Origin: an uncultured Gammaproteobacteria bacterium
Lineage (GTDB): Bacteria > Pseudomonadota > Gammaproteobacteria > Pseudomonadales > Azotimanducaceae_A
NCBI GenBank assembly: GCA_913041025.1
Contig: CAJWGQ010000036.1
Coordinates: 1 to 18,071 of the forward strand
Length of the DNA stretch: 18,071 nt
Direction of reading: 5' to 3'
Part shown: positions 1,963 to 15,718 of the stretch, one piece after another
How the letters are laid out: each line of letters starts with the position of its first letter
Position numbering within the stretch: the stretch's first letter is position 1
The notes under the pieces: generated by a model
Databases searched by the model: none
What the model was told of the DNA's origin: nothing
Seen by the model: the letters and a program-made list of their open reading frames with translations, nothing else
Made by a program: the position numbers and the translations under genes

Positions 1963-3048
1963 TTAACTCGAGCTGAACCCTAACGCCTCTCGGTAAGGCT
2001 TCATATCCATCCCCGGGTAACGTCGACCGACAGAATCCACTGTCTCTTGCGTCCAGTAAGGGTCACCAGGCGGCGCAAAACCCAAAACTGCGCGCTGCTC
2101 GACGTTAAGCCTTTCCAAATAGCGATTGGGCAACAAAGCCATCCTGGGAGCCAGTCCTTGCCAGCTGACCCAATCAGCGTGCCTTTTTCTCCAGCCCCTG
2201 TGATGGGTATACCTCACTCTGTTAAGAGCGGCCGGGGTACCTCGGTGCCAAGCGTCTAGTCTATACAAGACACAGGTACCTTTTTTATAGTGAATGGGTC
2301 GTTCCCTTTGGTAACGCTCTTCAGTTAATTCAAGAGACCTCGGCCCATCTGAAGTCGATGCAGAACCGTTGGTTGTTCCGAATATAAAGTTGGGAGGGTT
2401 GAAGGTTTCGGGTCTGTAACGGGTTAATTCCCCCGCTTTTGCTTTGGCGAAGTGCGTCGCTCCGCCAGCCTCCTCTACGTCGCTATAGTAACAAAGACAG
2501 GCAACGACCTCCGGACCCGACTCTCTTGGAGGAACCAACAACGTGTTGTTGCCATAATCTACATGGATATCCTGATCACCGGCAATTGACATCGGCTGGG
2601 CGCCATCCTCTTCTCCGACGGGCCTTCCAAATTTCGCGATCAAATGATCTTGATAAAGTCTTAGTTCGGCAGCATCCACACCCAACAGCTCGCTCGCGGC
2701 CCTGATCGCCCGGTGATGCACAGACATGTGATTGATAGCCAAGTCAGCAGACTCCTCCTGACGATGAATCCAGGGCATCGAAGAAAATGGGTTGTAACGC
2801 TCATCAGACAAACTACGCGCGATGACTTTCTGCTCTGGAAACAGCTCTATAGTCTCCGCTACCGCCTGCTCGACCATCTCACTAGGCCATAGGTCATCAA
2901 CAACGATAAACCCATCCTCAAGGAAACGCCGCCTTTGATCGCTCGTCAGTAGCTTCGCTTCCGAATCTTGGTCGCTTGGAAGCTGTTCAGGCCACCACCA
3001 ATCTTCTTCTTTCATACCCTTATAGGGATCTGGAGATGTGTTTTTCAT
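1963..3048 (-). CDS. Phytanoyl-CoA dioxygenase (PhyH) family protein
   Basis: This 361-residue protein belongs to the PhyH family (PF05721) of Fe(II)/2-oxoglutarate oxygenases. The facial triad is visible: DIHVDYG supplies His162 and Asp164, and AWHRGTP supplies His268. Arg277 and Arg279 lie downstream at the spacing expected for binding the 2-oxoglutarate carboxylate. The region LTSDQRRRFLEDGFIVVDDL at 34-53 is the usual start of the double-stranded beta-helix domain. The roughly 30 residues before it are rich in acidic residues and Trp (DWWWPEQ). The intact triad implies an active hydroxylase rather than a degenerate homologue, but family members act on many substrates and none can be named. 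I chose ATG 3048 over an upstream GTG at 3066 because GGTGG lies before it. The gene is divergent from the amidohydrolase at 3172, sharing a 120-base region with a palindrome. Confidence 0.87.
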   Translation of the reverse strand: MKNTSPDPYKGMKEEDWWWPEQLPSDQDSEAKLLTSDQRRRFLEDGFIVVDDLWPSEMVEQAVAETIELFPEQKVIARSLSDERYNPFSSMPWIHRQEESADLAINHMSVHHRAIRAASELLGVDAAELRLYQDHLIAKFGRPVGEEDGAQPMSIAGDQDIHVDYGNNTLLVPPRESGPEVVACLCYYSDVEEAGGATHFAKAKAGELTRYRPETFNPPNFIFGTTNGSASTSDGPRSLELTEERYQRERPIHYKKGTCVLYRLDAWHRGTPAALNRVRYTHHRGWRKRHADWVSWQGLAPRMALLPNRYLERLNVEQRAVLGFAPPGDPYWTQETVDSVGRRYPGMDMKPYREALGFSSS

Positions 3049-3092
3049 TAGACCACCAACTTGCACCTTGTTTTCAATGTATATCCACCCTA

Positions 3093-3121
3093 TTGGCAGA
3101 AATAGGTTAACCTATCATAGT
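3093..3121 (+). promoter_or_regulatory. Candidate sigma-70 promoter for amidohydrolase 1
   Basis: TTGGCA at 3093-3098 and CATAGT at 3116-3121 are separated by exactly 17 bases, matching four of six consensus positions in each hexamer. The start codon of the amidohydrolase lies about 50 bases downstream. The whole spacer is occupied by the palindrome at 3102-3115, so a protein bound there would block RNA polymerase. Confidence 0.4.
3102..3115. promoter_or_regulatory. Perfect 14-bp palindrome, probable operator
   Basis: ATAGGTTAACCTAT reads the same on both strands and stops being symmetric just outside these ends. It lies in the divergent region between the dioxygenase and amidohydrolase genes, inside the spacer of the candidate promoter. 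Its core AGGTTAACCT recurs at 6811-6822. No regulator gene is present in the window, so a TetR- or GntR-like binding protein is only an inference. Confidence 0.5.
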
Positions 3122-3171
3122 CAAGGTCGCGTCTGCAGAGCCAGACAGACAAACCAACCGGACTAGATCGA

Positions 3172-4809
3172 ATGCTCACACTCTACCCAGCCAAAAAAGT
3201 CATCACCATGAATCCTTCGATGCCACAAGCCAAGGCCATCCTGGTGGACAATGATCGAATCGTAGAAGTGGGATCAATCGAACGCATGAAACCATGGCTC
3301 GACGCCAAACCTCACCAAGTTGATGACCGTTTTCAGGATAGGATAATCTGTCCCGGCTTCATCGATCCGCACCTCCACCCGAGTATGGCAGCAGTGCTTC
3401 TTCCGATGGAGTTCATCACGGCTATGAAGTGGAAACTCCCTTGGGGAACAGTCGAGCCAACGACGTCGGAGGCGTCATTCGATAAACGAATGCGCGAACT
3501 GCACCACGAAAAAGGCCCTGAAGAACCGCTGTTCATTTGGGGTTTTCATCAGTTGTGGCACGGAAAAATGAGCAAACCCCGCATTAATGCGGTGACTGAC
3601 GAGCGCCCCGTGATCGTTTGGCACCGGTCGTTTCATGAGCTGTATATGAACGATGCGGCCCTCCAGATGGTCAGCCTCAAAGAGCAAGACATCAAGCCAG
3701 GAGCACAAATCGATTTCCAAAACGGCCATTTTTATGAAACTGGCTTGGGGCTTGCCATTGCAAGACTTAATCCCTGGATACTAAGCCCGGAGCGCTTCGC
3801 CAATGGCTTAAAACGATTGAAAGAAGTCGTCCATTATGGCGGCCACACCACCATCGGCGATATGGCGACTGGGCTTTTTGATTTCGAGTCCGAGGTGGCG
3901 GCTTTAAACCAAATTCTTGAAGGCGATGATGTGCCTTTTCGGACTCGTTTAGTTGCTCATGGAAGCTACGTTAGAGGATGGGCAGACACACTGGAAGAAT
4001 CAGTAAAATTAGCGTCGGGACTGACGAACCGAAACACTCATCGGCTGCAATTCGGTCAGCACATCAAGTTATTTAGTGACGGGGCCTTCTTCAGCCAGCT
4101 AGCGCAAATGGAGGAGCCCGGTTATATCGACGGACACCACGGCGAATGGCTAATGCCTCCTGAGCTACTGGAAACCAACATACGCGCCTATTGGAACGCG
4201 GGGTTCCAGATTCACGTGCATTGCTGCGGAAACCTCGGAGTGGAGTTAACCCTCGATATTCTTGAAAAAATGCAGTTTGAAAGACCAAGATTCAACCACG
4301 GGTTTACCTTTGAGCACTTCGGATTCAGCACTCCAGAGCAAATTAAACGCATCAGATCCTTGGGCGCCCAAGTCTCCGCAAACATCTACTACTTGCATGA
4401 ATTATCGGATATGTACTCCAGAGAAGGGATAGGTCACGAGCGCGCATCACAAATCTCCCGAATAGGATCGTGTTTTAGGGAAGGGATTAACACCACAGTT
4501 CACTCGGACTTCACCATGGCCCCGGCCGAGCCCTTGAATCATGCCTGGGTAGGCGTTAATCGAATCAACGCCGCCGGAGAGGTGATGTGCGCCGAAGAGA
4601 AAATCACACCACAACAAGCGCTCGAGGCCATCACGATCAACGCAGCCCATGTCCTCGGCATGGAATCGATCACAGGCAGCTTACGATCCGGCAAGTTGGC
4701 CGATTTCACAGTACTAGAAGATTGCCCGCTCTCGTGTTCACCCGAAGAGATCAACGATATCCCGATCATCGGCACCGTGTTTGAAGGCAAATCATTTTTC
4801 ATCGACTAA
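3172..4809 (+). CDS. Amidohydrolase family 3 (YtcJ-like) metal-dependent hydrolase 1
   Basis: This 545-residue protein is an amidohydrolase-superfamily enzyme of the Amidohydro_3/YtcJ type (PF07969). A small beta domain (residues 1-60) precedes the barrel, and the metal ligands are all in place: HxH at His67/His69 in FIDPHLHP, Lys299 in HIKLFSDGAF as the likely carboxylated bridge, His348/His350 in QIHVHCCGN, His382 in FTFEHF, and Asp445 in VHSDF. The closing sequence GSLRSGKLADFTVLEDCPL is typical. Members hydrolyse amide, ester or ring C-N bonds; the substrate is unknown. No signal peptide is seen, so it should be cytoplasmic. Its stop codon is followed after two bases by a G3E GTPase start, implying translational coupling. 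It is a clear paralogue of the hydrolase at 6796-8460 (shared MKPWL, PGFIDPH and TMxP-like N-terminal features). No clear Shine-Dalgarno sequence precedes the ATG. Confidence 0.9.
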   Translation: MLTLYPAKKVITMNPSMPQAKAILVDNDRIVEVGSIERMKPWLDAKPHQVDDRFQDRIICPGFIDPHLHPSMAAVLLPMEFITAMKWKLPWGTVEPTTSEASFDKRMRELHHEKGPEEPLFIWGFHQLWHGKMSKPRINAVTDERPVIVWHRSFHELYMNDAALQMVSLKEQDIKPGAQIDFQNGHFYETGLGLAIARLNPWILSPERFANGLKRLKEVVHYGGHTTIGDMATGLFDFESEVAALNQILEGDDVPFRTRLVAHGSYVRGWADTLEESVKLASGLTNRNTHRLQFGQHIKLFSDGAFFSQLAQMEEPGYIDGHHGEWLMPPELLETNIRAYWNAGFQIHVHCCGNLGVELTLDILEKMQFERPRFNHGFTFEHFGFSTPEQIKRIRSLGAQVSANIYYLHELSDMYSREGIGHERASQISRIGSCFREGINTTVHSDFTMAPAEPLNHAWVGVNRINAAGEVMCAEEKITPQQALEAITINAAHVLGMESITGSLRSGKLADFTVLEDCPLSCSPEEINDIPIIGTVFEGKSFFID

Positions 4810-4811
4810 AG

Positions 4812-5732
4812 ATGCAAGGGGCCAATTCTAAAGACATTCCAATCACCTTAATTTGCGGGTACCTGGGCTCAGGAAAAACCACTCTCATCAACCAAATCCT
4901 CAACACACCCCTATTCCCAAAACGACTAGCCATCCTGATTAACGATTTTGGTGACCTAGACGTAGACGCCACTTTAATCAAACAAGAGCGCAATGACGGG
5001 AACATAATCAGTTTAAAAAACGGATGCGTCTGCTGCAAAATACAGGACGATCTCGTTTCCACTTTAGAAATCATTAAATCGGAGCAAACCGATGGTGTTT
5101 TGATAGAAGCCAGCGGTATCGCCATACCAAACAAGCTCAAGAAACAGTGCCTCGTTCCGGGCTATGATCTAGGCCGTTGCGCCGTTACGATCGACGCACA
5201 GAATTTCAACACCAAACGGAAAGACAAATATGTCGGGTACCTTGTCGAACAACAGGCAACCGAGGGAGACCTTTTAGTAATCACCAAAACCGATCTGGCC
5301 CCCACCTTTAAATTAGAACTCTCCATCAAGAGCAAGAGTTCAGATCAAAGTGTTAATCGTATCGAACAGGTTTTATCAAGTGATCCCAATTTAACAGAGC
5401 ACCTTTTCCAACCTCAAAACATGACAACGACGTCTGATGAAACAGAAAAGGGCGTCGGCTTTGCCAGCACCACATTGAAACAAACAAGACTAATTCCGCA
5501 AAGCAAGCTCGAGAGTCTGGTCGAAGGAATTCCCAGGTGGGTAGAACGCATCAAGGGAGCAGCTCATACAGATCAAGGCGTAACGCTTGTTCAAGCAAAC
5601 TCTCACTTTCGCAATTTAACCTCTCAACCCGAACCAGGCCCTAGAGGTTTGATTATCATCTATCCGGAAGACTTTCGCTCAGAGGTCAAAACAACTTTCT
5701 ACGAATGGCGGGAGTGGTTCTCCATCAGCTAG
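4812..5732 (+). CDS. CobW/G3E-family GTPase 1, putative metallochaperone
   Basis: This 306-residue protein belongs to the COG0523/CobW group of G3E GTPases. The Walker A motif GYLGSGKTT is at residues 16-24. The metal-binding GCVCC motif is at 71-75, EASGIAIP at 99-106 replaces the usual E-[ST]-[ST]-G, and TKTD at 158-161 stands for the guanine-specificity NKxD. A CobW C-terminal domain follows, including PRWVERIKG. Family members insert or allocate Zn, Co or related metals using GTP. No His-rich metal-storage tail is present. The start lies two bases after the amidohydrolase stop, so the two proteins are probably made together; delivery of metal to that hydrolase is the natural inference. 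Its stop is only 24 bases from the stop of the second, convergent GTPase gene. Confidence 0.88.
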   Translation: MQGANSKDIPITLICGYLGSGKTTLINQILNTPLFPKRLAILINDFGDLDVDATLIKQERNDGNIISLKNGCVCCKIQDDLVSTLEIIKSEQTDGVLIEASGIAIPNKLKKQCLVPGYDLGRCAVTIDAQNFNTKRKDKYVGYLVEQQATEGDLLVITKTDLAPTFKLELSIKSKSSDQSVNRIEQVLSSDPNLTEHLFQPQNMTTTSDETEKGVGFASTTLKQTRLIPQSKLESLVEGIPRWVERIKGAAHTDQGVTLVQANSHFRNLTSQPEPGPRGLIIIYPEDFRSEVKTTFYEWREWFSIS

Positions 5733-5756
5733 TAGAAATAATGCTCGGCTTAGAGA

Positions 5757-6794
5757 CTAGTCGACTTTAATCTCGCAGGCCTTAAGACGGTGTGTAAAAT
5801 CTCGAAACTCTGAGATTCCGGATTGGCCGATCACCACGAGCTCCTTTTTGTCTGCTCTTCCTACAATCTGATTAACTCGCCAATAACGACCCACCACCTG
5901 GACATCAAATATCGGAGCAACCTCATCACGATCATCTTCGCTGGTTAAGCCGACGAAACCCTTTATGCGGTAGACGAATCGAGGAATGGTATCCAACAGT
6001 TCACGAAATGACTTCCTATTCAGAGGGCCATCAAAGCTAATCGACTCCGATGCAAACTGGCTGTAGTCGTGGACCTGTTTCAAAACTGGTAGATGGGCGC
6101 CCTTCAAAGATGACCCAAAAAGCACTTTCTCTAACCCCTCTTTAATCTTGGACGCGAATAGAATCGGTCGGCCTGGAGTTAGTCCTTCAAGCTGATTCGA
6201 CAGATCGAGTAACTGATCCTCACCCGAGGTCTTGGTGACAATAATCAGGTGTGCTGACTCAAGCTGGCGCAGCAAAAGTTCCCGAGTGAAAATATCGGCA
6301 GCTCTTTCTTCTAAGGTTGTCGCATCGACCACGGCTATAACGCCATCCAGTTCAAATCCAGTTTGGTTTCGCACGGTTTGCGTAAACCCAAAGGGATCAG
6401 ACAATCCACTGGTCTCGATAATGATAGCGGCAGGCAGCTTCGATCTTGCTCGTATCTCGGTCAAGCGATCTGATAAATCAGACCCCAACACACAACAGGC
6501 ACAGCCATTTTCTAATTCTATGGTCTCGGCATCTCGTCGGCGAATCATCGCACCATCGATGTTGATCGAGGCAATGTCGTTTACTATCACCAAGATTTCG
6601 TCGTTAACTTGCTCGAGCAACTTGCACAGCAAAGTTGTCTTACCAGCACCTAAAAAACCACACAACAAAATCACAGGAATCGACTGGGCCTCAGCATTTT
6701 GTACGTTATCGCTACAAACCATTTGTCCTGGATGGCCCAAAGTCGTCATCAATACGTCTTTCGCCTCGACCAACCTATCTTCTTCCGAGAGCAT
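5757..6794 (-). CDS. CobW/G3E-family GTPase 2, putative metallochaperone
   Basis: This 345-residue paralogue of the GTPase at 4812-5732 carries Walker A GFLGAGKTT at 46-54, GCACC at 97-101 and ETSGLSDP at 127-134. The guanine-specificity motif has decayed to TKTSGED, so nucleotide selectivity may differ. A CobW C-terminal domain ends in ELVVIGQSGISEFRDF, another family hallmark. About 35 extra residues precede the first beta strand. The frame is open for 54 codons further upstream, but that part overlaps the hydrolase gene in another frame. ATG 6794 is preferred because it begins one base after the hydrolase stop and has AGGA before it. A 16-bp palindrome lies just upstream of that ribosome site. 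As with the first copy, a role in metal supply to the adjacent hydrolase is inferred, not shown. Confidence 0.88.
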   Translation of the reverse strand: MLSEEDRLVEAKDVLMTTLGHPGQMVCSDNVQNAEAQSIPVILLCGFLGAGKTTLLCKLLEQVNDEILVIVNDIASINIDGAMIRRRDAETIELENGCACCVLGSDLSDRLTEIRARSKLPAAIIIETSGLSDPFGFTQTVRNQTGFELDGVIAVVDATTLEERAADIFTRELLLRQLESAHLIIVTKTSGEDQLLDLSNQLEGLTPGRPILFASKIKEGLEKVLFGSSLKGAHLPVLKQVHDYSQFASESISFDGPLNRKSFRELLDTIPRFVYRIKGFVGLTSEDDRDEVAPIFDVQVVGRYWRVNQIVGRADKKELVVIGQSGISEFRDFTHRLKACEIKVD

Positions 6795-6795
6795 A

Positions 6796-8460
6796 TTAAT
6801 CTGTCCTCGCAAGGTTAACCTTGCCTGCCAGAATCGTTCCTCGTACGGCAATGTCACGGATTCTTCTGGTATCAACCTGAAAGGGGTCTTCATCCAAGAT
6901 CGCAAAGTCAGCGCACTTACCGGCTTCGATGCTCCCCAGACGATGGTCCTGACCAAGCACGTAGGCCGCGTCCACCGTAATCGCGCGCATCGCCCGCTCC
7001 ACCGAAATTCTCTCGCCAGGACTCAAAACAGTTTCTCCATCTGAGCCTATCCTGTTCACCGCAATCCAAACAGCTGTCAGGGGATGCATCGGCGCGACGA
7101 CCAGATTGTAGTCAGAGTGTAGGGCAAATCTTGCCCCCGCATCGACTAAGGAGCCCAGCCTGGCTGTGGCTTCGGTTCGATCCGGGCCAAACCCACGATC
7201 ATTGTGTATATCGGATCGGTAATGAACAAAATAGGGATTCACACTCGCTAATCCACTCAAAGCAGAAAGCCGCCGAGCCTGAGCAGGAGTACTAATGCAA
7301 TAGTGCTCTATGGTAAAGCGATGATCAAACTTCGGCGATCTATTTAACAATTCACTAAGAGTATCCAACGTCATGTCAACAGTTTCGTCTCCGTTGGCGT
7401 GAGAGTGGATCTGTATCCCATTTTCCCAAAACGGCAGCATTCTCTCCACCATGTCAGACCAGTCGACGTCACCCGTCAACCCCACTTCTCCATCAAGATA
7501 GCCCGGAAAATTCAACTTTAATGTCATTGCCGGGTAAGAACCGTCATTGACATACTTGACACCGTGGACCGCAAGCCGATCGGTTTCCTTTGTCTTCATC
7601 TCCGAGTAAAACTCCATGAAGTCCTTACCAAAACTTCTGCGTAGAGCAGACTCAAAGGGAACCAACAGCACTCTCATGGGCAAAACGCCTTGCTCAATCG
7701 CCCGCATGTGGTCGTCCCACTCTCTTTCAAAGGAGTCCACTCCATAGATCATGTCTGCGGTCGCGGTAACACCACTATCGACCGCTACCTGCCCTTGTAG
7801 ACTGAGCGCTTGGAGCCCAAACCCTGCCCCATAGACCTCTTCTCGGACAGGTTTTGAAGCAGCACCAACCGCTGCAGACTCTACGAACCAGCCATTCAGT
7901 CTCCCATCAGCATATCGCCCCAGGCCATGCAGCTCAGTCTCTTCGTTCACTCCTATATGCTCGATCATCGCCGAATTCGCATAAACAATGTGCGGTGCGT
8001 AAGCCAATACCCATATCGGAACATCCTTGGACACTTGGTCGAGCATGTCTCGGTCCAGGTGACCTTTTTGGACCCCTGGATCATACCCCCAGGCGATGAC
8101 AGGGTTCCTCGATGCTTCGGTGAGCTTTTTTAGCTTTTCCAAAACGGCATCTCGGTCAATGAATCCCGAGACCTTTCGCCCGGACGGGTCGGTCGAGTCG
8201 ATAGGACCTAGGTATTCGAGCCCCATGTATGTCCCAGAGAGCCTAAGATGGGTGTGAGGATCAATAAAACCAGGGAACAAAACTTTGTTTGAAAAGGTAT
8301 CGTCTATTTCGTGGGGGTACCGTTCAAGCCACGGTTTCATGCTGTCTAGATTGCCAACAGAGACTACTTTCCCTTCCGCCACCGCCACAGCGTTTGCGAC
8401 CGGTCTTCCCAGATCCATCGTGCGAATCGTTTTCGCCAGAAACACAGTCAACTTGTCCAT
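6796..8460 (-). CDS. Amidohydrolase family 3 (YtcJ-like) metal-dependent hydrolase 2
   Basis: This 554-residue protein is a YtcJ-like amidohydrolase. It has HxH at His69/His71 in FIDPHTH, Lys302 in VKYVNDGS, His352/His354 in IHSHANGD, His386 in FTIEHY and Asp450 in LHSD. The HANGD sequence is the classic form for the family, whereas copy 1 has HCCGN, so the active sites differ around the same metal ligands. It ends in GSIEAGKCADFAILDEDPF. The N-terminus parallels copy 1 (MKPWL, then PGFIDPH). I chose ATG 8460 because MDKLTVFLAKTIRTMD aligns with copy 1; a TTG at 8478 would add six residues. The G3E GTPase gene begins one base after its stop. The YeiH-type transporter gene is divergent, with about 150 bases between the starts. 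The substrate is unknown. Confidence 0.9.
   Translation of the reverse strand: MDKLTVFLAKTIRTMDLGRPVANAVAVAEGKVVSVGNLDSMKPWLERYPHEIDDTFSNKVLFPGFIDPHTHLRLSGTYMGLEYLGPIDSTDPSGRKVSGFIDRDAVLEKLKKLTEASRNPVIAWGYDPGVQKGHLDRDMLDQVSKDVPIWVLAYAPHIVYANSAMIEHIGVNEETELHGLGRYADGRLNGWFVESAAVGAASKPVREEVYGAGFGLQALSLQGQVAVDSGVTATADMIYGVDSFEREWDDHMRAIEQGVLPMRVLLVPFESALRRSFGKDFMEFYSEMKTKETDRLAVHGVKYVNDGSYPAMTLKLNFPGYLDGEVGLTGDVDWSDMVERMLPFWENGIQIHSHANGDETVDMTLDTLSELLNRSPKFDHRFTIEHYCISTPAQARRLSALSGLASVNPYFVHYRSDIHNDRGFGPDRTEATARLGSLVDAGARFALHSDYNLVVAPMHPLTAVWIAVNRIGSDGETVLSPGERISVERAMRAITVDAAYVLGQDHRLGSIEAGKCADFAILDEDPFQVDTRRIRDIAVRGTILAGKVNLARTD
6809..6824. repeat. Perfect 16-bp palindrome at the amidohydrolase 2/GTPase 2 junction
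   Basis: GCAAGGTTAACCTTGC is fully self-complementary and shares the 10-base core AGGTTAACCT with the operator-like palindrome at 3102-3115. It lies in the last codons of the hydrolase, immediately before the Shine-Dalgarno region of the GTPase gene. As RNA it could fold into a six-base-pair stem with a UUAA loop. It could therefore be a DNA operator or a translational hairpin. Confidence 0.5.
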
Positions 8461-8559
8461 TTTCCGATCACTCTGCAATCATGACAATTGGCACCTCAGC
8501 CACTCCAAAACGGTTACTCCACTTAACATAGCCCGCGCCCTTAGGAACTAAAACAACCG

Positions 8560-8588
8560 TAGATAGCCAAGAGGTTTGGTTATATATT
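8560..8588 (+). promoter_or_regulatory. Candidate promoter for the YeiH-family gene
   Basis: TAGATA at 8560-8565 and TATATT at 8583-8588 are 17 bases apart, matching four and five of six sigma-70 consensus positions. The ribosome site AGGAAG at 8603-8608 precedes ATG 8612, leaving a short leader. Support is motif-based only. Confidence 0.35.
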
Positions 8589-8611
8589 GCTCAGAATCAT
8601 CGAGGAAGTAC

Positions 8612-9562
8612 ATGGCAATCATCTCTTCTCTGTTTTCGGACAAATTCTTGCTCTCTATTCTAGTGCTGGCAGTTTTGTTAGTGATATTAGGCAACCCTGC
8701 GCTAGCGTTTCTCGCTGCGGCGGCGATTTCTTTATGGTCTAACAGAATAATCATCAAGAATGCGTCCAAGTACTCTAAATACTCTCTTCAAACTGCCATC
8801 GTCCTTCTCGGATTCAGCATGAGCGCGGATAACCTGCTCGCTTTGAGCGCAGATTATGCGCTGACCGTATCGGTCTATGTGGTCATCACATTACTTGCGG
8901 GCTTATTGATCGGATGGATGATCAGGCAACAGAGCGTCGATAGCAAACTGATCTCGACTGGCACAGCCATATGCGGGGGCACCGCAATCGCTTCGCTATC
9001 ACCTATTTTGTCAGCCACGCCGGCACAAACGGGTATGTGTTTAGCATTAGTCTTCGTCCTGAACGCCCTTGCCCTCTTGACCTTTCCCTATGTCGGTCAA
9101 TGGTTGGAACTGTCTCAAGCACAATTCGGCGTCTGGTCAGCCCTCGCGATTCATGACACCTCCAGTGTCGTGGCGACCGCTATGATCTACGGAGAAGAAG
9201 CAGCCCAAGTCGCGACCACGCTTAAGCTGGGCAGAACTTTGTGGTTGATCCCCATTTTATTGGGTTTCGCGCTCATCGAAGGCAGCAAGGAAAACAAAGG
9301 CAGACTAGTCACCGTGCCTAGGTTTATCTTTCTGTTTATTGGGGCTTCTGTCTTAGCCTCTTACTTCGACTTGCCCTCAGTCTTCATTACGACGACAGGC
9401 GTCGTGAGCAAAACCCTACTCGTAATAGCACTATTCCTTGTCGGAATCGCGACCACTCGAGAAAACCTTTCCGTGTTAAATGCTAAACACCTGATCCAAG
9501 GGCTCGCCATCTGGATCCTTGTTGTTGCCGCGACGCTAGGTTATGTAATAACCCAAATCTGA
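8612..9562 (+). CDS. YeiH/UPF0324 family putative sulfate exporter-type membrane protein
   Basis: This 316-residue integral membrane protein belongs to the YeiH family (PF03601), annotated as putative sulfate exporters but poorly characterised. It is mostly hydrophobic, with about nine to ten membrane segments. It carries the family signatures TGTAICGGTAIASLSPIL near 118-136 and WSALAIHDTSSVVATAMIYG near 178-197, followed by LKLGRTLWLIP. ATG 8612 is preferred because AGGAAG lies just ahead and the first membrane helix then begins at the right place; a TTG at 8576 lacks such support. It is divergent from amidohydrolase 2 and converges on the YghU-like gene with only 18 bases between their stops. 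Transport of sulfate, sulfite or another oxyanion is possible. A LysR regulator often accompanies yeiH genes, but none is present here. Confidence 0.88.
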   Translation: MAIISSLFSDKFLLSILVLAVLLVILGNPALAFLAAAAISLWSNRIIIKNASKYSKYSLQTAIVLLGFSMSADNLLALSADYALTVSVYVVITLLAGLLIGWMIRQQSVDSKLISTGTAICGGTAIASLSPILSATPAQTGMCLALVFVLNALALLTFPYVGQWLELSQAQFGVWSALAIHDTSSVVATAMIYGEEAAQVATTLKLGRTLWLIPILLGFALIEGSKENKGRLVTVPRFIFLFIGASVLASYFDLPSVFITTTGVVSKTLLVIALFLVGIATTRENLSVLNAKHLIQGLAIWILVVAATLGYVITQI

Positions 9563-12539: not shown

Positions 12540-14906
12540 CTAAACTCCTACCGCGCCGATATCATAGAGCTCAGCAACTTGTTCGTCGCTATAACCCAGC
12601 AGATCACGAAGATACCGGTCAGTATCCGCCCCGAGACACGGCGCCGATCGACTGACCTGACTACTCGTACTTCTAGAAACCCAGGGGATTCCCGTATGCG
12701 CCTTTGCGCCCACCTCAGGATGCGGTAATCGTTCGATGAAACGTCGACTCAACAGATGACGGTCTTCAACGATATCCTTGGTTGTCATTGTGGGGAACGC
12801 GGCAACGCCTTTTGCCTGTAAACGCTCGGTTATATTCCATTTATCCTTGTCTTGAGTCCATAGAGTAATAATCTGGTCCAAGGCGTCTTCGTTTTGTTTT
12901 CTGGCCTTCAGATCTTTAAACCGCGGATCCTCTTCTAGGCCTTTTGAAATTTCTTTTGCCACTTGTCGCCATTCCTCATCCCCAGTAACCGCAATAGAAA
13001 CCCACGCGTCCTCGCCTGTGCAGGGATAACAACCGTGAGGTGCCATCACGTGACTCCGGTTCCCAATGCGCTGGGGCTGTTTGCCATCGACGACATAGTC
13101 CATCCAACCAGATAGATTGAGCACGGCCGTAGCCTCCCAAAGGCTAATATCCAAGTGATCTCCCTCACCGGTTTGTTCTCGTCTCAACAACGCAGAGACC
13201 ACTCCGAGCGTTCCCGTGATTCCCGCCGTCGGATCTGGCATTGAAAGTCCGATCTCCTGTGGTCCGCCGCCTATATACCCGGTCCCTTCAGACAAACCCG
13301 CAAGAGGCGGCATCGCTGGGCCATAGCCCATGTATTCTCTGTAAGGCCCGGTCTGACCGTAGCCACTAATACTGACTAATATCAGCTTGGGATTAATCGC
13401 TTTTAACTGATCATATCCAAGTCCCAGCCGGTCCAGCACGCCCGTCGCGAAATTTTGAACCAATACATCGCTTTTTGAAACCAACTGACGAACAATCTCT
13501 AGACCTCTTTCATGGCCAAGATCGATCGACATACTCGACTTTCCCTGGTTCCATTGATTGAACATGCCAGAGTTATTTAGTGTGGGCTCCCAATCTTCTG
13601 GAAAAACCGGCATCCGTCGGTACAGGTCCGCTCTCTTTGTAGATTCTAATCTAATTACTTCAGCGCCAAGATGGGCCAGGTTAAGGGAACAGAAAGGCCC
13701 CGCCCATGCCCAGGTCATATCTAACACACGGACACCTTCCAGCGGCAGACCGATAGACCCTGTTGAATTTACGAGTTCGCGCCCAGACAACGACTCGATG
13801 TCATCGTTGTGCTCGCCTAATGTAGGAGCAGCTCGGATAAACGATGCTCGACCCGATTGTTTCAAGGTAGCGCCCCTCATTAACTCGAGCTCGCCCAGAT
13901 CTCCGAGCGCAACTTTTTCAAAAAACCCTCTAGATCGAAGATGCTCGCTCCTGGACATCTTTTCAAAGTCCATCACAGGCGCGACGCATATTCGATGCTG
14001 CTGTGCCGCGTGATATAGATCTTCGGCTAACCAGTCTCCAACAAACTCTTGCACCATCGCGTGAACCATATCCTGGTTCTCGGCTCTGCCCGGTTGATCC
14101 AAAAACAACTCCAGAGACGCCCATTCCGGATTTCCCATGAACTCGACCAATCTTTCCCATTGGTCCTGTTCAATACATGCTATAAATACGGGCCTATCCT
14201 TCGCCTGGAATATTTTCCAAGGAATAAGCGATCTCGGAAAGATCCTAGAAATAACATCGCCCTTATAACTGAACACCGGGACAGCAACTTCCAGCACAGA
14301 GCACACGTACTCTTGAATCGAAAAATCGATCGCCTCACCTTGGCCGGTCGAGCGCGCTTTTTTTAAATACGCCAGCCCTGTCGCGGCAGCCGAGATCGCG
14401 GCCATCATAGAACTCTGTTCACCGAAAGGTTTCAGAGGCGGCAAGCTGGGATCTGGCTCAGTGGCCGGACAAAGGTTTGCCCAGCCGCCAGCATTCACAA
14501 GATTTATTTCCTCTGTTGAATAATCTGAATAAGGCCCGCTCAAACCAAAAGGGGTAACCGCTAGCACTACCAGGTGAGGTCGACTCTCTAATAGGACATC
14601 AGCATCGAGCCCCAATCTCACAACCTCAGATTGTTTTAGTCCGTGCACGACCAAGTCTGCCCAATCTAGAAGCCGACTGAGCTCTGCCTTATCTTCATAA
14701 TTGACAGAGACACCGCGCTTGTTTACGTTCAGAGCCGAAAACAACAAACCCTCCACAGGTTTACTCTTTTTACCGATAAAACCCGAAGAAGCCCTCAAAG
14801 TATCGCCAGTCAGTGGCTCTACCTTAATAACGTCGGCACCTTCGTCTGCAAGCAGTTTGCCTGTATAGGAAGTCGCGACTCCGCCCGAAAGCTCTAACAC
14901 CCGCAT
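12540..14906 (-). CDS. Tandem-domain CaiB/BaiF (class III) CoA-transferase
   Basis: This 788-residue protein carries two class III CoA-transferase domains (PF02515) in one chain, about residues 1-375 and 385-788. Each has the first-strand signature (MRVLELSG; EGVRVLDMTWAWAGPF) and a GADVIKVE- or GAEVIRLE-like motif, and each has an NxNKR-like segment or its remnant. Class III enzymes move CoA between carboxylic acids through an aspartyl-CoA intermediate. The catalytic Asp is present only in the second half: Asp558 in MPDPTAGI. A gapless alignment puts Ser166 at that place in the first half. Single-domain relatives form interlocked dimers, so this fusion probably folds as an internal pseudo-dimer with one active centre; the DMSP enzyme DddD is a known tandem example, but no DMSP genes are nearby. 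ATG 14906 starts 44 bases after the cis-prenyltransferase stop. Confidence 0.9.
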   Translation of the reverse strand: MRVLELSGGVATSYTGKLLADEGADVIKVEPLTGDTLRASSGFIGKKSKPVEGLLFSALNVNKRGVSVNYEDKAELSRLLDWADLVVHGLKQSEVVRLGLDADVLLESRPHLVVLAVTPFGLSGPYSDYSTEEINLVNAGGWANLCPATEPDPSLPPLKPFGEQSSMMAAISAAATGLAYLKKARSTGQGEAIDFSIQEYVCSVLEVAVPVFSYKGDVISRIFPRSLIPWKIFQAKDRPVFIACIEQDQWERLVEFMGNPEWASLELFLDQPGRAENQDMVHAMVQEFVGDWLAEDLYHAAQQHRICVAPVMDFEKMSRSEHLRSRGFFEKVALGDLGELELMRGATLKQSGRASFIRAAPTLGEHNDDIESLSGRELVNSTGSIGLPLEGVRVLDMTWAWAGPFCSLNLAHLGAEVIRLESTKRADLYRRMPVFPEDWEPTLNNSGMFNQWNQGKSSMSIDLGHERGLEIVRQLVSKSDVLVQNFATGVLDRLGLGYDQLKAINPKLILVSISGYGQTGPYREYMGYGPAMPPLAGLSEGTGYIGGGPQEIGLSMPDPTAGITGTLGVVSALLRREQTGEGDHLDISLWEATAVLNLSGWMDYVVDGKQPQRIGNRSHVMAPHGCYPCTGEDAWVSIAVTGDEEWRQVAKEISKGLEEDPRFKDLKARKQNEDALDQIITLWTQDKDKWNITERLQAKGVAAFPTMTTKDIVEDRHLLSRRFIERLPHPEVGAKAHTGIPWVSRSTSSQVSRSAPCLGADTDRYLRDLLGYSDEQVAELYDIGAVGV

Positions 14907-14950: not shown

Positions 14951-15718
14951 TCAAGCTCCAAACCGTCTATCTCTTTGTTGCCATACGCGGATCGCTCGCC
15001 AGTAATCAATCTTTCGAAAAGCTGGCCAAAAAACTTCCGTGAAATATAACTCTGAGTACGCGCTCTGCCAGAGCAGAAAACCTGACAAGCGCTCCTCGCC
15101 AGAGGTTCTAATGATCAAGTCAGGGTCCGGCATTCCTTCCGTGTACAGGTGATCAGAAAAAAGCTCTTCATTGATCTCTTCCGGAGCGAGCTCTCCCGAC
15201 CGGACCTTTACTGAGATCTCCTTCACAGCATCGATAATTTCAGCTCTTCCCCCGTAACCTAAAGCAATATTAAGCTGAAAGTTTTCATGGTCTTGGGTCA
15301 ATTTTTCGACTGCTTCGATTTCTTCGATCATTTCTTGCGATAGGGTCTGCCTCTGGCCTATCACCTTAACTTTTACGCCTTCTCTCTTGATCACAGGGTC
15401 CGTCTGCAAAGTCTTTAGCTTGTTGAGGATGATTTCCATCACCTCTGACACCTCGTCTTCGCTACGATTGTAATTTTCGGTTGAAAACCCGTACAAGGTC
15501 ACGATTTTGATCTGTAAATCCAGACACCAACTTAGGAAGTCCTCTAGCTTGTCAGAGCCCACCCTATGACCATCGCTTCGTTTAGCAAGGCCCTTGGCCA
15601 TCGCGTAACGTCGATTGCCGTCGACGATCAACCCAACATGATGAGGCATGCGTCTGGTAAAGACCTGTCGGCGCAGAAGACCTTCATAAAATCTATACAA
15701 AAAAGACGGGATATTCAT
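14951..15718 (-). CDS. cis-Prenyltransferase (polyprenyl diphosphate synthase, UppS family)
   Basis: This 255-residue protein is a cis-prenyltransferase (PF01255) that condenses isopentenyl diphosphate onto an allylic diphosphate. Catalytic Asp33 lies in IVDGNRRYA. LYGFSTENYNRSEDEV at 75-90 matches the second conserved region. RTSGEERLSGFLLWQ and YSELYFTEVFWPAF near the C-terminus provide the isopentenyl-diphosphate-binding and dimer motifs. Bacterial UppS normally reads DGNGRWA and SSENWxRP; here both Trp are Tyr and Gly is Arg, closer to archaeal-type or medium-chain enzymes. Canonical neighbours (frr, dxr, cdsA, rseP) are absent, so this is probably a paralogue with another chain length or role rather than the essential enzyme. 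Hence no uppS symbol is assigned. AGGAAG precedes ATG 15718. It heads the minus-strand series with the CoA-transferase and the monooxygenase. Confidence 0.9.
   Translation of the reverse strand: MNIPSFLYRFYEGLLRRQVFTRRMPHHVGLIVDGNRRYAMAKGLAKRSDGHRVGSDKLEDFLSWCLDLQIKIVTLYGFSTENYNRSEDEVSEVMEIILNKLKTLQTDPVIKREGVKVKVIGQRQTLSQEMIEEIEAVEKLTQDHENFQLNIALGYGGRAEIIDAVKEISVKVRSGELAPEEINEELFSDHLYTEGMPDPDLIIRTSGEERLSGFLLWQSAYSELYFTEVFWPAFRKIDYWRAIRVWQQRDRRFGA

Follow-up and report, generated by a model that had tools for sequence, protein, structure and literature searches.

Paired genes for YtcJ-like amidohydrolases and COG0523 GTPases as a candidate metallochaperone–client system

The G3E GTPase UreG matures the nickel enzyme urease, which is itself an amidohydrolase-superfamily enzyme whose activation is accompanied by lysine carboxylation. 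A comparable arrangement is found for Nha3, the activator of Fe-type nitrile hydratase, which is a COG0523 protein likewise dedicated to a neighbouring metalloenzyme (PMC9164220, PMC2770081), and UreG and Nha3 have been presented as dedicated maturation partners for their respective enzymes (PMC9164220). Many other COG0523 proteins have no known client, and the prediction of clients from gene clusters has been called for (PMC9164220), with subfamilies having been defined by gene neighbourhood (PMC2770081). Here we describe an 18,071-nucleotide stretch of DNA (the window; contig CAJWGQ010000036.1) from an uncultured Gammaproteobacteria bacterium, in which two YtcJ-like amidohydrolase genes, AH1 and AH2, are each followed immediately by a gene for a COG0523 GTPase, G1 and G2 respectively, with the two pairs arranged tail to tail (Table 1).

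The likeness of these pairs to the UreG/urease system is one of principle, and it does not imply that nickel is the metal used. G1 scores 26.4 bits against the UreG model (cut-off 204.2) and G2 has no listed match to it. Apart from the cobW domain that urease accessory proteins have in common with G1 and G2, the Pfam matches of the 14 main window genes do not include any family of such proteins. Nha3 serves an enzyme of another class than the window hydrolases, and it is likened to G1 and G2 by description. G1 and G2 belong to the same protein family as the ZigA/YciC and CobW subfamilies and share their motifs, but they score far below the cut-offs of the NCBIfam models for ZigA (80 and 88.3 bits, respectively; cut-off 600) and CobW (99.5 and 85.7 bits; cut-off 332.1). 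From our analysis, the best explanation is that each pair probably comprises a metalloenzyme and its private maturase, or in other words a client and a metallochaperone dedicated to it. This reading is based on the adjacency and order of the genes, the co-divergence of the two families, the conserved motifs, the folds, and the similar pairing of genes in two other types of amidohydrolase.

Table 1. Coordinates of the two gene pairs in the window
Feature	Position	Strand	Size
AH1, Amidohydro_3 (YtcJ-like) hydrolase, subfamily B	3172-4809	+	545 aa
G1, COG0523/CobW-type G3E GTPase, partner of AH1	4812-5732	+	306 aa
Gap separating the convergent GTPase genes	5733-5756	.	24 bases between stops
G2, COG0523/CobW-type G3E GTPase, partner of AH2	5757-6794	-	345 aa
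AH2, Amidohydro_3 (YtcJ-like) hydrolase, subfamily A	6796-8460	-	554 aa

The gene set and spacing given in the original prediction were borne out by the open reading frame list and by Pfam, with 2 bases between the AH1 stop and G1, 1 base between AH2 and G2, and the gap between the GTPase genes as tabulated. The length of G2 is counted from the ATG at 6794 and that of AH2 likewise from an inner ATG, the starts in the open reading frame list lying farther upstream.

To define pairing elsewhere, we considered a hydrolase gene to be linked when a COG0523 frame on the same strand overlaps it or has its upstream end less than 150 bases past the hydrolase end. A scan with relatives of G2 yielded at least 80 loci, and in 10 of 80 (L001-L006, L008, L009, L023 and L052) a clear relative of AH1 or AH2 adjoins the GTPase gene. 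A distant hydrolase is present beside the GTPase at L049 and L066, and the remaining 68 gave no hydrolase match in this comparison. Because these loci had been picked by their GTPase, separate surveys were conducted by hydrolase query alone in a total of 653 genomes, belonging to the classes of genomes G009 (274), G008 (289) and G002, a Myxococcota metagenome-assembled genome (90). All 18 places found in the G009 class were examined, of which L092, in the seed genome, was tallied with the GTPase-chosen genomes. Likewise, all 65 places in the G008 class were examined and 61 were counted, leaving out two fragments (L146 and L191), L137, which is counted elsewhere, and L171, whose end has the same sequence as that of a second row. 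For the G002 class, which gave 142 places, 54 of the best 59 were examined and 51 counted after exclusion of the fragments L267 and L268 and the seed genome's gene. The three seed genomes came from GTPase-chosen loci, and one of the 36 linked subfamily C genes reported below (L181) resides in a seed genome.

In a 166-row hydrolase tree made by a quick method, 117 rows form one clade (Shimodaira–Hasegawa-like approximate likelihood ratio test, SH-aLRT, 100), and this clade comprises subfamilies A (which includes AH2), B (which includes AH1) and C, plus the rest. In the hydrolase surveys, a COG0523 gene lies directly downstream of 6 of 7 genes of subfamily A, 10 of 13 of B and 36 of 38 of C (52 of 58 together), as compared with 0 of 38 for the other clade members and 0 of 33 for hydrolases outside the clade. 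When all rows are included, GTPase-chosen loci among them, the linked fractions are 10/11 for A, 15/18 for B, 45/49 for C, 0/39 for the rest and 2/49 outside, although all these figures are gene counts and not independent events, because many of the rows are closely related. Among the further unlinked C rows, L097_1489 opens a run of two hydrolase genes followed by a GTPase gene, whereas L097_1 is a cut copy of L106. Relatives of AH1 and of AH2 alike thus preserve the adjacency, and the pairing in the window is not accidental. The G002 class is also rich in AH1-like hydrolases that have no adjacent GTPase gene (L233, L235-L246, L253-L266, L273 and L279).

The linked or unlinked state follows the hydrolase tree closely, as evident by the 9 changes needed on it versus 54 with shuffled labels. 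In a COG0523 tree of 161 rows, including 43 of about 80 background proteins, a branch with an SH-aLRT value of 98 parts all partners of the hydrolase clade from the background and from a Pseudomonas pair type described below, and within this tree G1 clusters with the B partners and G2 with the A partners. The same split received support of 71/97 in a more careful tree of 66 rows, which were sampled by hand with six long-branched rows omitted. Judging from these trees, the partners of the hydrolase clade likely form a COG0523 group of their own, although the split is not firmly fixed. Distances in the hydrolase and GTPase trees are correlated across 65 pairs (Spearman 0.47), exceeding the maximum of 0.196 among 999 permutations, which ignore kinship.

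Genomes with at least two pairs provide a more direct comparison. In 30 of 31 within-genome tests, not all of which are independent, the GTPase is nearer to that of the pair elsewhere whose hydrolase is nearest than to the GTPase of its sibling pair, a pattern for which common descent of the organisms does not readily account. For five held-out plasmid pairs, the nearest GTPases in the main set match the hydrolase subfamily in all five cases (three C, one A from Mesorhizobium and one B from Pukyongiella). The joint phylogeny proposed at the outset as a check for co-evolving pairs yields matched pairings. Together with the conserved adjacency, this means that the idea has withstood both outcomes originally named as refuting it, and coupling between the hydrolase gene and the GTPase gene is well supported.

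The window GTPases carry motifs for nucleotide and metal binding that are known from their family. G1 and G2 match the Pfam family cobW (PF02492) at 129.4 and 131.8 bits (cut-off 20.7), and G2 also matches CobW_C (30.4 bits; cut-off 22), for which G1 gives no match at an E value of 0.001. As originally predicted, Walker A (GYLGSGKT in G1 and GFLGAGKT in G2) and the CxCC motif (CVCC and CACC) are intact in both proteins. CxCC is characteristic of COG0523 (PMC9164220), and it is retained in 70 of the 70 clade-linked partner GTPases examined. At the G4 position, where NKxD is expected, G1 has TKTD and so keeps the Asp, whereas G2 has TKTS and lacks this determinant of guanine specificity. The Asp is likewise kept in none of the 17 metagenome relatives of G2 examined. 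G2 additionally carries an N-terminal extension of approximately 35 residues, and its G domain matches YjiA, UreG and HypB. Stretches rich in His were considered as a mark of these partners, and they proved not to be general.

AH1 and AH2 match the Pfam domain Amidohydro_3 at 148.8 and 210.4 bits (cut-off 29.7), and they are called YtcJ-like (YtcJ being COG1574) on the basis of this domain. The prediction that both hydrolases keep every metal ligand also stands, since all positions of the HxH/Lys/His/His/Asp set were found in AH1 (H67, H69, K299, H350, H382 and D446) and in AH2 (H69, H71, K302, H354, H386 and D450), these being the metal ligands in the family. Across the 117 rows of the clade, the HxH, Lys, beta-5 His and Asp positions are invariant, with one row gapped at HxH, and 116 rows retain the beta-6 His. 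A predicted model of AH2, with a mean predicted local distance difference test score (pLDDT) of 93.1, finds its best structural matches in the Amidohydro_3 proteins of PDB entries 3igh and 3icj (template-modelling scores of 0.71 and 0.69 by query length; 21-23% identity). Since the proteins of these two entries bear the title 'uncharacterized', no substrate can be transferred from them to AH2. We also considered two extra His residues of AH2, H352 and H448, as signs of chaperone dependence, and this idea was rejected on their clade-wide occurrence. The equivalent of H448 is invariant in the clade whether linked or not. Subfamilies A, B and C together have an equivalent of H352 in 74 of 78 rows, and the other clade members have one in 29 of 39. 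Both residues occur outside the clade as well.

For each pair, the mechanism we favour would begin with a hydrolase that folds as an amidohydrolase with the HxH/Lys/His/His/Asp metal site, followed by production of the COG0523 protein from the next gene, whose start is at or near the hydrolase stop. This protein would bind a nucleotide through Walker A and a transition metal through CxCC, and would dock on the newly made apo-hydrolase, whereupon nucleotide hydrolysis would cause release of the metal into the enzyme. Docking would be specific, with each hydrolase subfamily served by its own GTPase subfamily, and zinc is our default guess for the metal. We infer the physical interaction, the direction of metal transfer, the identity of the metal and the nature of the substrates, with transfer itself being suggested by membership of the partners in COG0523.

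It might be argued that the GTPase is indeed a partner of the hydrolase, yet turns it on or off as a switch or sensor that depends on nucleotide, or removes the wrong metal, instead of loading the right one. What adjacency and co-divergence demonstrate is no more than coupling, the metal site is retained by relatives that have no linked chaperone gene, and the absence of the G4 Asp from G2 and from 17 of its 17 metagenome relatives hints at altered nucleotide use. These points are compatible with such a role, but CxCC persists in every clade-linked partner examined and the characterised COG0523 proteins handle metals (PMC9164220), making a role as switch, sensor or metal remover unlikely in our judgement.

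Pairs of the same organization are also evident in annotated plasmids. In 7 of the 61 matching records, which were the ones examined, an amidohydrolase gene was inspected together with its neighbours. Such a gene is followed by one for a 'GTP-binding protein' in Burkholderia multivorans, Paracoccus aminovorans, Mesorhizobium sp. WSM4875, Pukyongiella litopenaei and Caballeronia sp. NK8, with spacings that range from a 4-base overlap to a 20-base gap in these five hosts. The Paracoccus pair (WP_074970544.1 and WP_074970545.1) is carried by plasmid IV of strain JCM7685. Altogether, six annotated plasmid pairs have an overlap or a gap of at most 4 bases, and the seventh has a gap of 20 bases. No GTPase is annotated within 2.5 kb of the hydrolase on a Plesiomonas plasmid (35-36% identity to C) or on a Leisingera plasmid whose hydrolase falls outside the clade.

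Two further types of amidohydrolase exhibit a similar pairing. An amidohydrolase of the PRK09061 type (768 bits; cut-off 340) has a CobW gene directly downstream in Roseomonas and Sulfitobacter plasmids, and the same order occurs at L032 (8512-10936) and L050 (8576-11002), as well as at L293 and L294. Treating the COG0523 proteins of L032 and L050 as unlinked background was therefore wrong; both are partners of PRK09061-type hydrolases that are still scored as background in the COG0523 trees and in the motif and His-rich counts, and an earlier COG0523 tree had placed them among the partners. Among 278 genomes of the G008 class, three PRK09061-type relatives at 63% identity have the GTPase gene and three at 33-39% do not, and the three genomes with the GTPase count for little more than one because they are close kin with near-identical C-type genes. 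The third type was surveyed in 25 genomes of the Pseudomonas locus genus, two of which gave no match. All 23 orthologues found (L302-L324; 88-100% identity) have a COG0523 gene immediately behind them, as compared with 0 of 4 paralogues at 32-33% identity. The partners of these two outside types fall among the background COG0523 proteins, and they are mutual neighbours (support 85) in the 161-row tree and not in the later one. Their position suggests that the pairing arose at least twice, and perhaps three times.

A broader proposal can be built on this, in which ordinary amidohydrolases would follow the same principle as urease does with UreG. Three amidohydrolase lineages, of at least two origins, would depend on a private COG0523 metal loader that docks in lock-and-key fashion and possibly aids carboxylation of the metal-bridging Lys, and the G2 line would have moved away from strict guanine specificity. 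We offer this combination tentatively, as one that could be correct but is rather doubtful as a whole.

The occurrence of pairs on plasmids raises the question of whether a mobile two-gene cassette might simply be maintained by transfer, without any functional link between its genes. A sample of neighbouring frames from loci with a recognised pair (132 of 166 picked by script, with 34 omitted by hand) was scanned with Pfam, and each family matched at most 3 of the 132 proteins. Frame calling was mechanical and probably included some that are not genes, and the sample shows only that no strong recurrent neighbour is prominent. The lack of another recurrent neighbour in this sample would suit a cassette, but the GTPase motifs have been kept over deep divergence, the two genes always stand in the same order, and a neighbour of this kind is also seen beside hydrolases outside the clade, and thus we regard a functionless cassette as very improbable. 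On plasmids, pairs of various types are located near genes for sodium:solute symporters, ABC or TRAP transporters, or M81 peptidases. The transporter neighbours suggest imported nitrogen-containing nutrients, amide- or peptide-like, as the substrates.

Several observations weigh against the interpretation of each pair as a metalloenzyme with its private maturase, in addition to the relatedness of the counted genes and the kinship ignored by the permutations. The evidence is derived from sequences and models. A chaperone is not a requirement of the hydrolase fold or of its metal site, because the 39 clade members outside A, B and C carry the same metal-site residues (one without the beta-6 His) with no adjacent GTPase gene, two of them (L145 and L233) not being judged as they lie at contig edges with less than 300 bases downstream. 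The GTPase may therefore serve to provide the right metal, speed, or function under scarcity, and not a need of the fold. Six survey genes of the linked subfamilies lack a GTPase gene, namely L252 (A), L131, L133 and L135 (B), and L182 and L184 (C). For L184 only 352 bases remain to the contig end, and L131, L133 and L135, at 52-54% identity to AH1, have no COG0523 gene even in wider flanks. The single failure in the within-genome tests is L083, whose GTPase shifts between groups across trees, and by a stricter measure, the same nearest neighbour in both trees, agreement falls to 20 of 31. His-rich stretches are rare in the partners (C 6/45, A 0/10, B 0/15) as compared with other COG0523 proteins (10/43).

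In addition, no convincing intact hydrolase-GTPase fusion within the clade was found among 120 listed of 1220 matches. PF02492 and PF07969 occur together in six of the 120. P0241, P0288, P0310 and P0325, as well as P0124 from a separate search, resemble fusions, but each is a metagenome prediction with a single member whose sequence looks like a join made by a frameshift, and they are therefore taken as signs of adjacency and not as fusions. P0251 (with a garbled relative, P0266), which joins a PRK09061-type hydrolase to a COG0523 protein, is not claimed as a real fusion, because its relatives in annotated plasmids are two separate genes. Among 15 listed of 26 plasmid matches to P0251, the two parts are both covered in six (51-62% identity) and the hydrolase part alone in nine (42-46%). 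The finding that 6 of 6 plasmid records covering at least 80% of P0251 carry a GTPase was left unused as circular, because the query itself contains the GTPase.

The same reading gains nothing from regulation by Zur. The window contains six matches to GTTATNNNATAAC, which we take to represent the Zur pattern, versus 5.5 expected, and none is located upstream of a hydrolase gene; Zur regulation of the pairs was rejected for these reasons. One exact match to the palindrome, at 9540-9552, lies inside the end of a PF03601 gene, with the number of matches in the window being at chance level. This result also bears on the possibility that the GTPase has a general role in metal scarcity and happens to be co-transcribed with the hydrolase. 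Some COG0523 proteins are indeed zinc-starvation proteins under Zur control (PMC2770081), but neither window pair is preceded by a Zur-like box, the COG0523 trees set the partners apart as a group, and the partners match the hydrolase subfamily within genomes. We consequently consider a general scarcity factor improbable, and a private maturase for each hydrolase remains the explanation we prefer.

The tail-to-tail layout had originally been ascribed to duplication of one pair followed by inversion. A recent local event of this kind would agree with the homology of the two pairs and with the way they face each other. However, a grouping that excludes AH2 unites AH1 with enzymes that have no GTPase (SH-aLRT 99 in a quick tree of a 53-row set), and both pair types are found at separate loci elsewhere, including on different contigs of single genomes (G001, G475 and G569). 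Such an origin is not supported, and we judge it highly unlikely. AH1 and AH2 share 30% identity and G1 and G2 share 27%, and neither the two hydrolases nor the two GTPases are each other's nearest relatives in the 166-row and 161-row trees. The closest relatives of AH2 found in genomes (71-72% identity) are in four genomes of the G002 class, and AH1/G1 were not seen around them in the fetched DNA, one contig of which ends about 0.8 kb past the GTPase gene. Subfamilies A and B are old and long diverged, B being closer to GTPase-less enzymes than to A in the hydrolase tree. Given this age and their separation elsewhere, the layout is most simply viewed as a later meeting of two old pairs. Some metagenome relatives may share a contig for G1- and G2-type genes, as suggested by the identical contig sizes reported for P0004 and P0122 (2175 bases) and for P0009 and P0129 (11629 bases). 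A terminator-like match on the + strand, with its stem at 5745-5764, overlaps the gap between G1 and G2; the region 3000-8700 contains 8 terminator-like sites versus 6.2 in shuffles.

In the literature we found no description of YtcJ/COG1574 or an amidohydrolase paired with CobW, G3E or COG0523 proteins, within the portions of the sources available, and a prior mention is possible. The word 'amidohydrolase' is absent from the main text of PMC2770081, and the available portions of PMC7174638 and PMC13081902 do not describe the pairing. In Staphylococcus aureus, an 'amidohydrolase family protein' is encoded two loci from a COG0523 GTPase (SA2366 and SA2368), and both are among the induced genes (PMC5480029).

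The pairs described here supply a client prediction that ties a COG0523 group to a defined hydrolase clade, and the GTPase-less sister hydrolases, which share the metal site, offer a natural control. If the prediction is true, some amidohydrolases would be under-metalated when expressed alone, and several systems would be available for measuring the contribution of the GTPase.

Other genes of the window also merit brief mention. Just upstream of AH1, on the opposite strand, 1963-3066 encodes an oxygenase-like protein with a weak 2OG-FeII match (22 bits; cut-off 27). The 788-aa protein encoded at 12540-14906 apparently carries two tandem CoA-transferase family III domains, as PF02515 matches it in two stretches. 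Finally, amid catabolic-looking genes, 14951-15718 encodes a UppS-type polyprenyl diphosphate synthase (269 bits against a cut-off of 109.55), which is possibly an extra copy.

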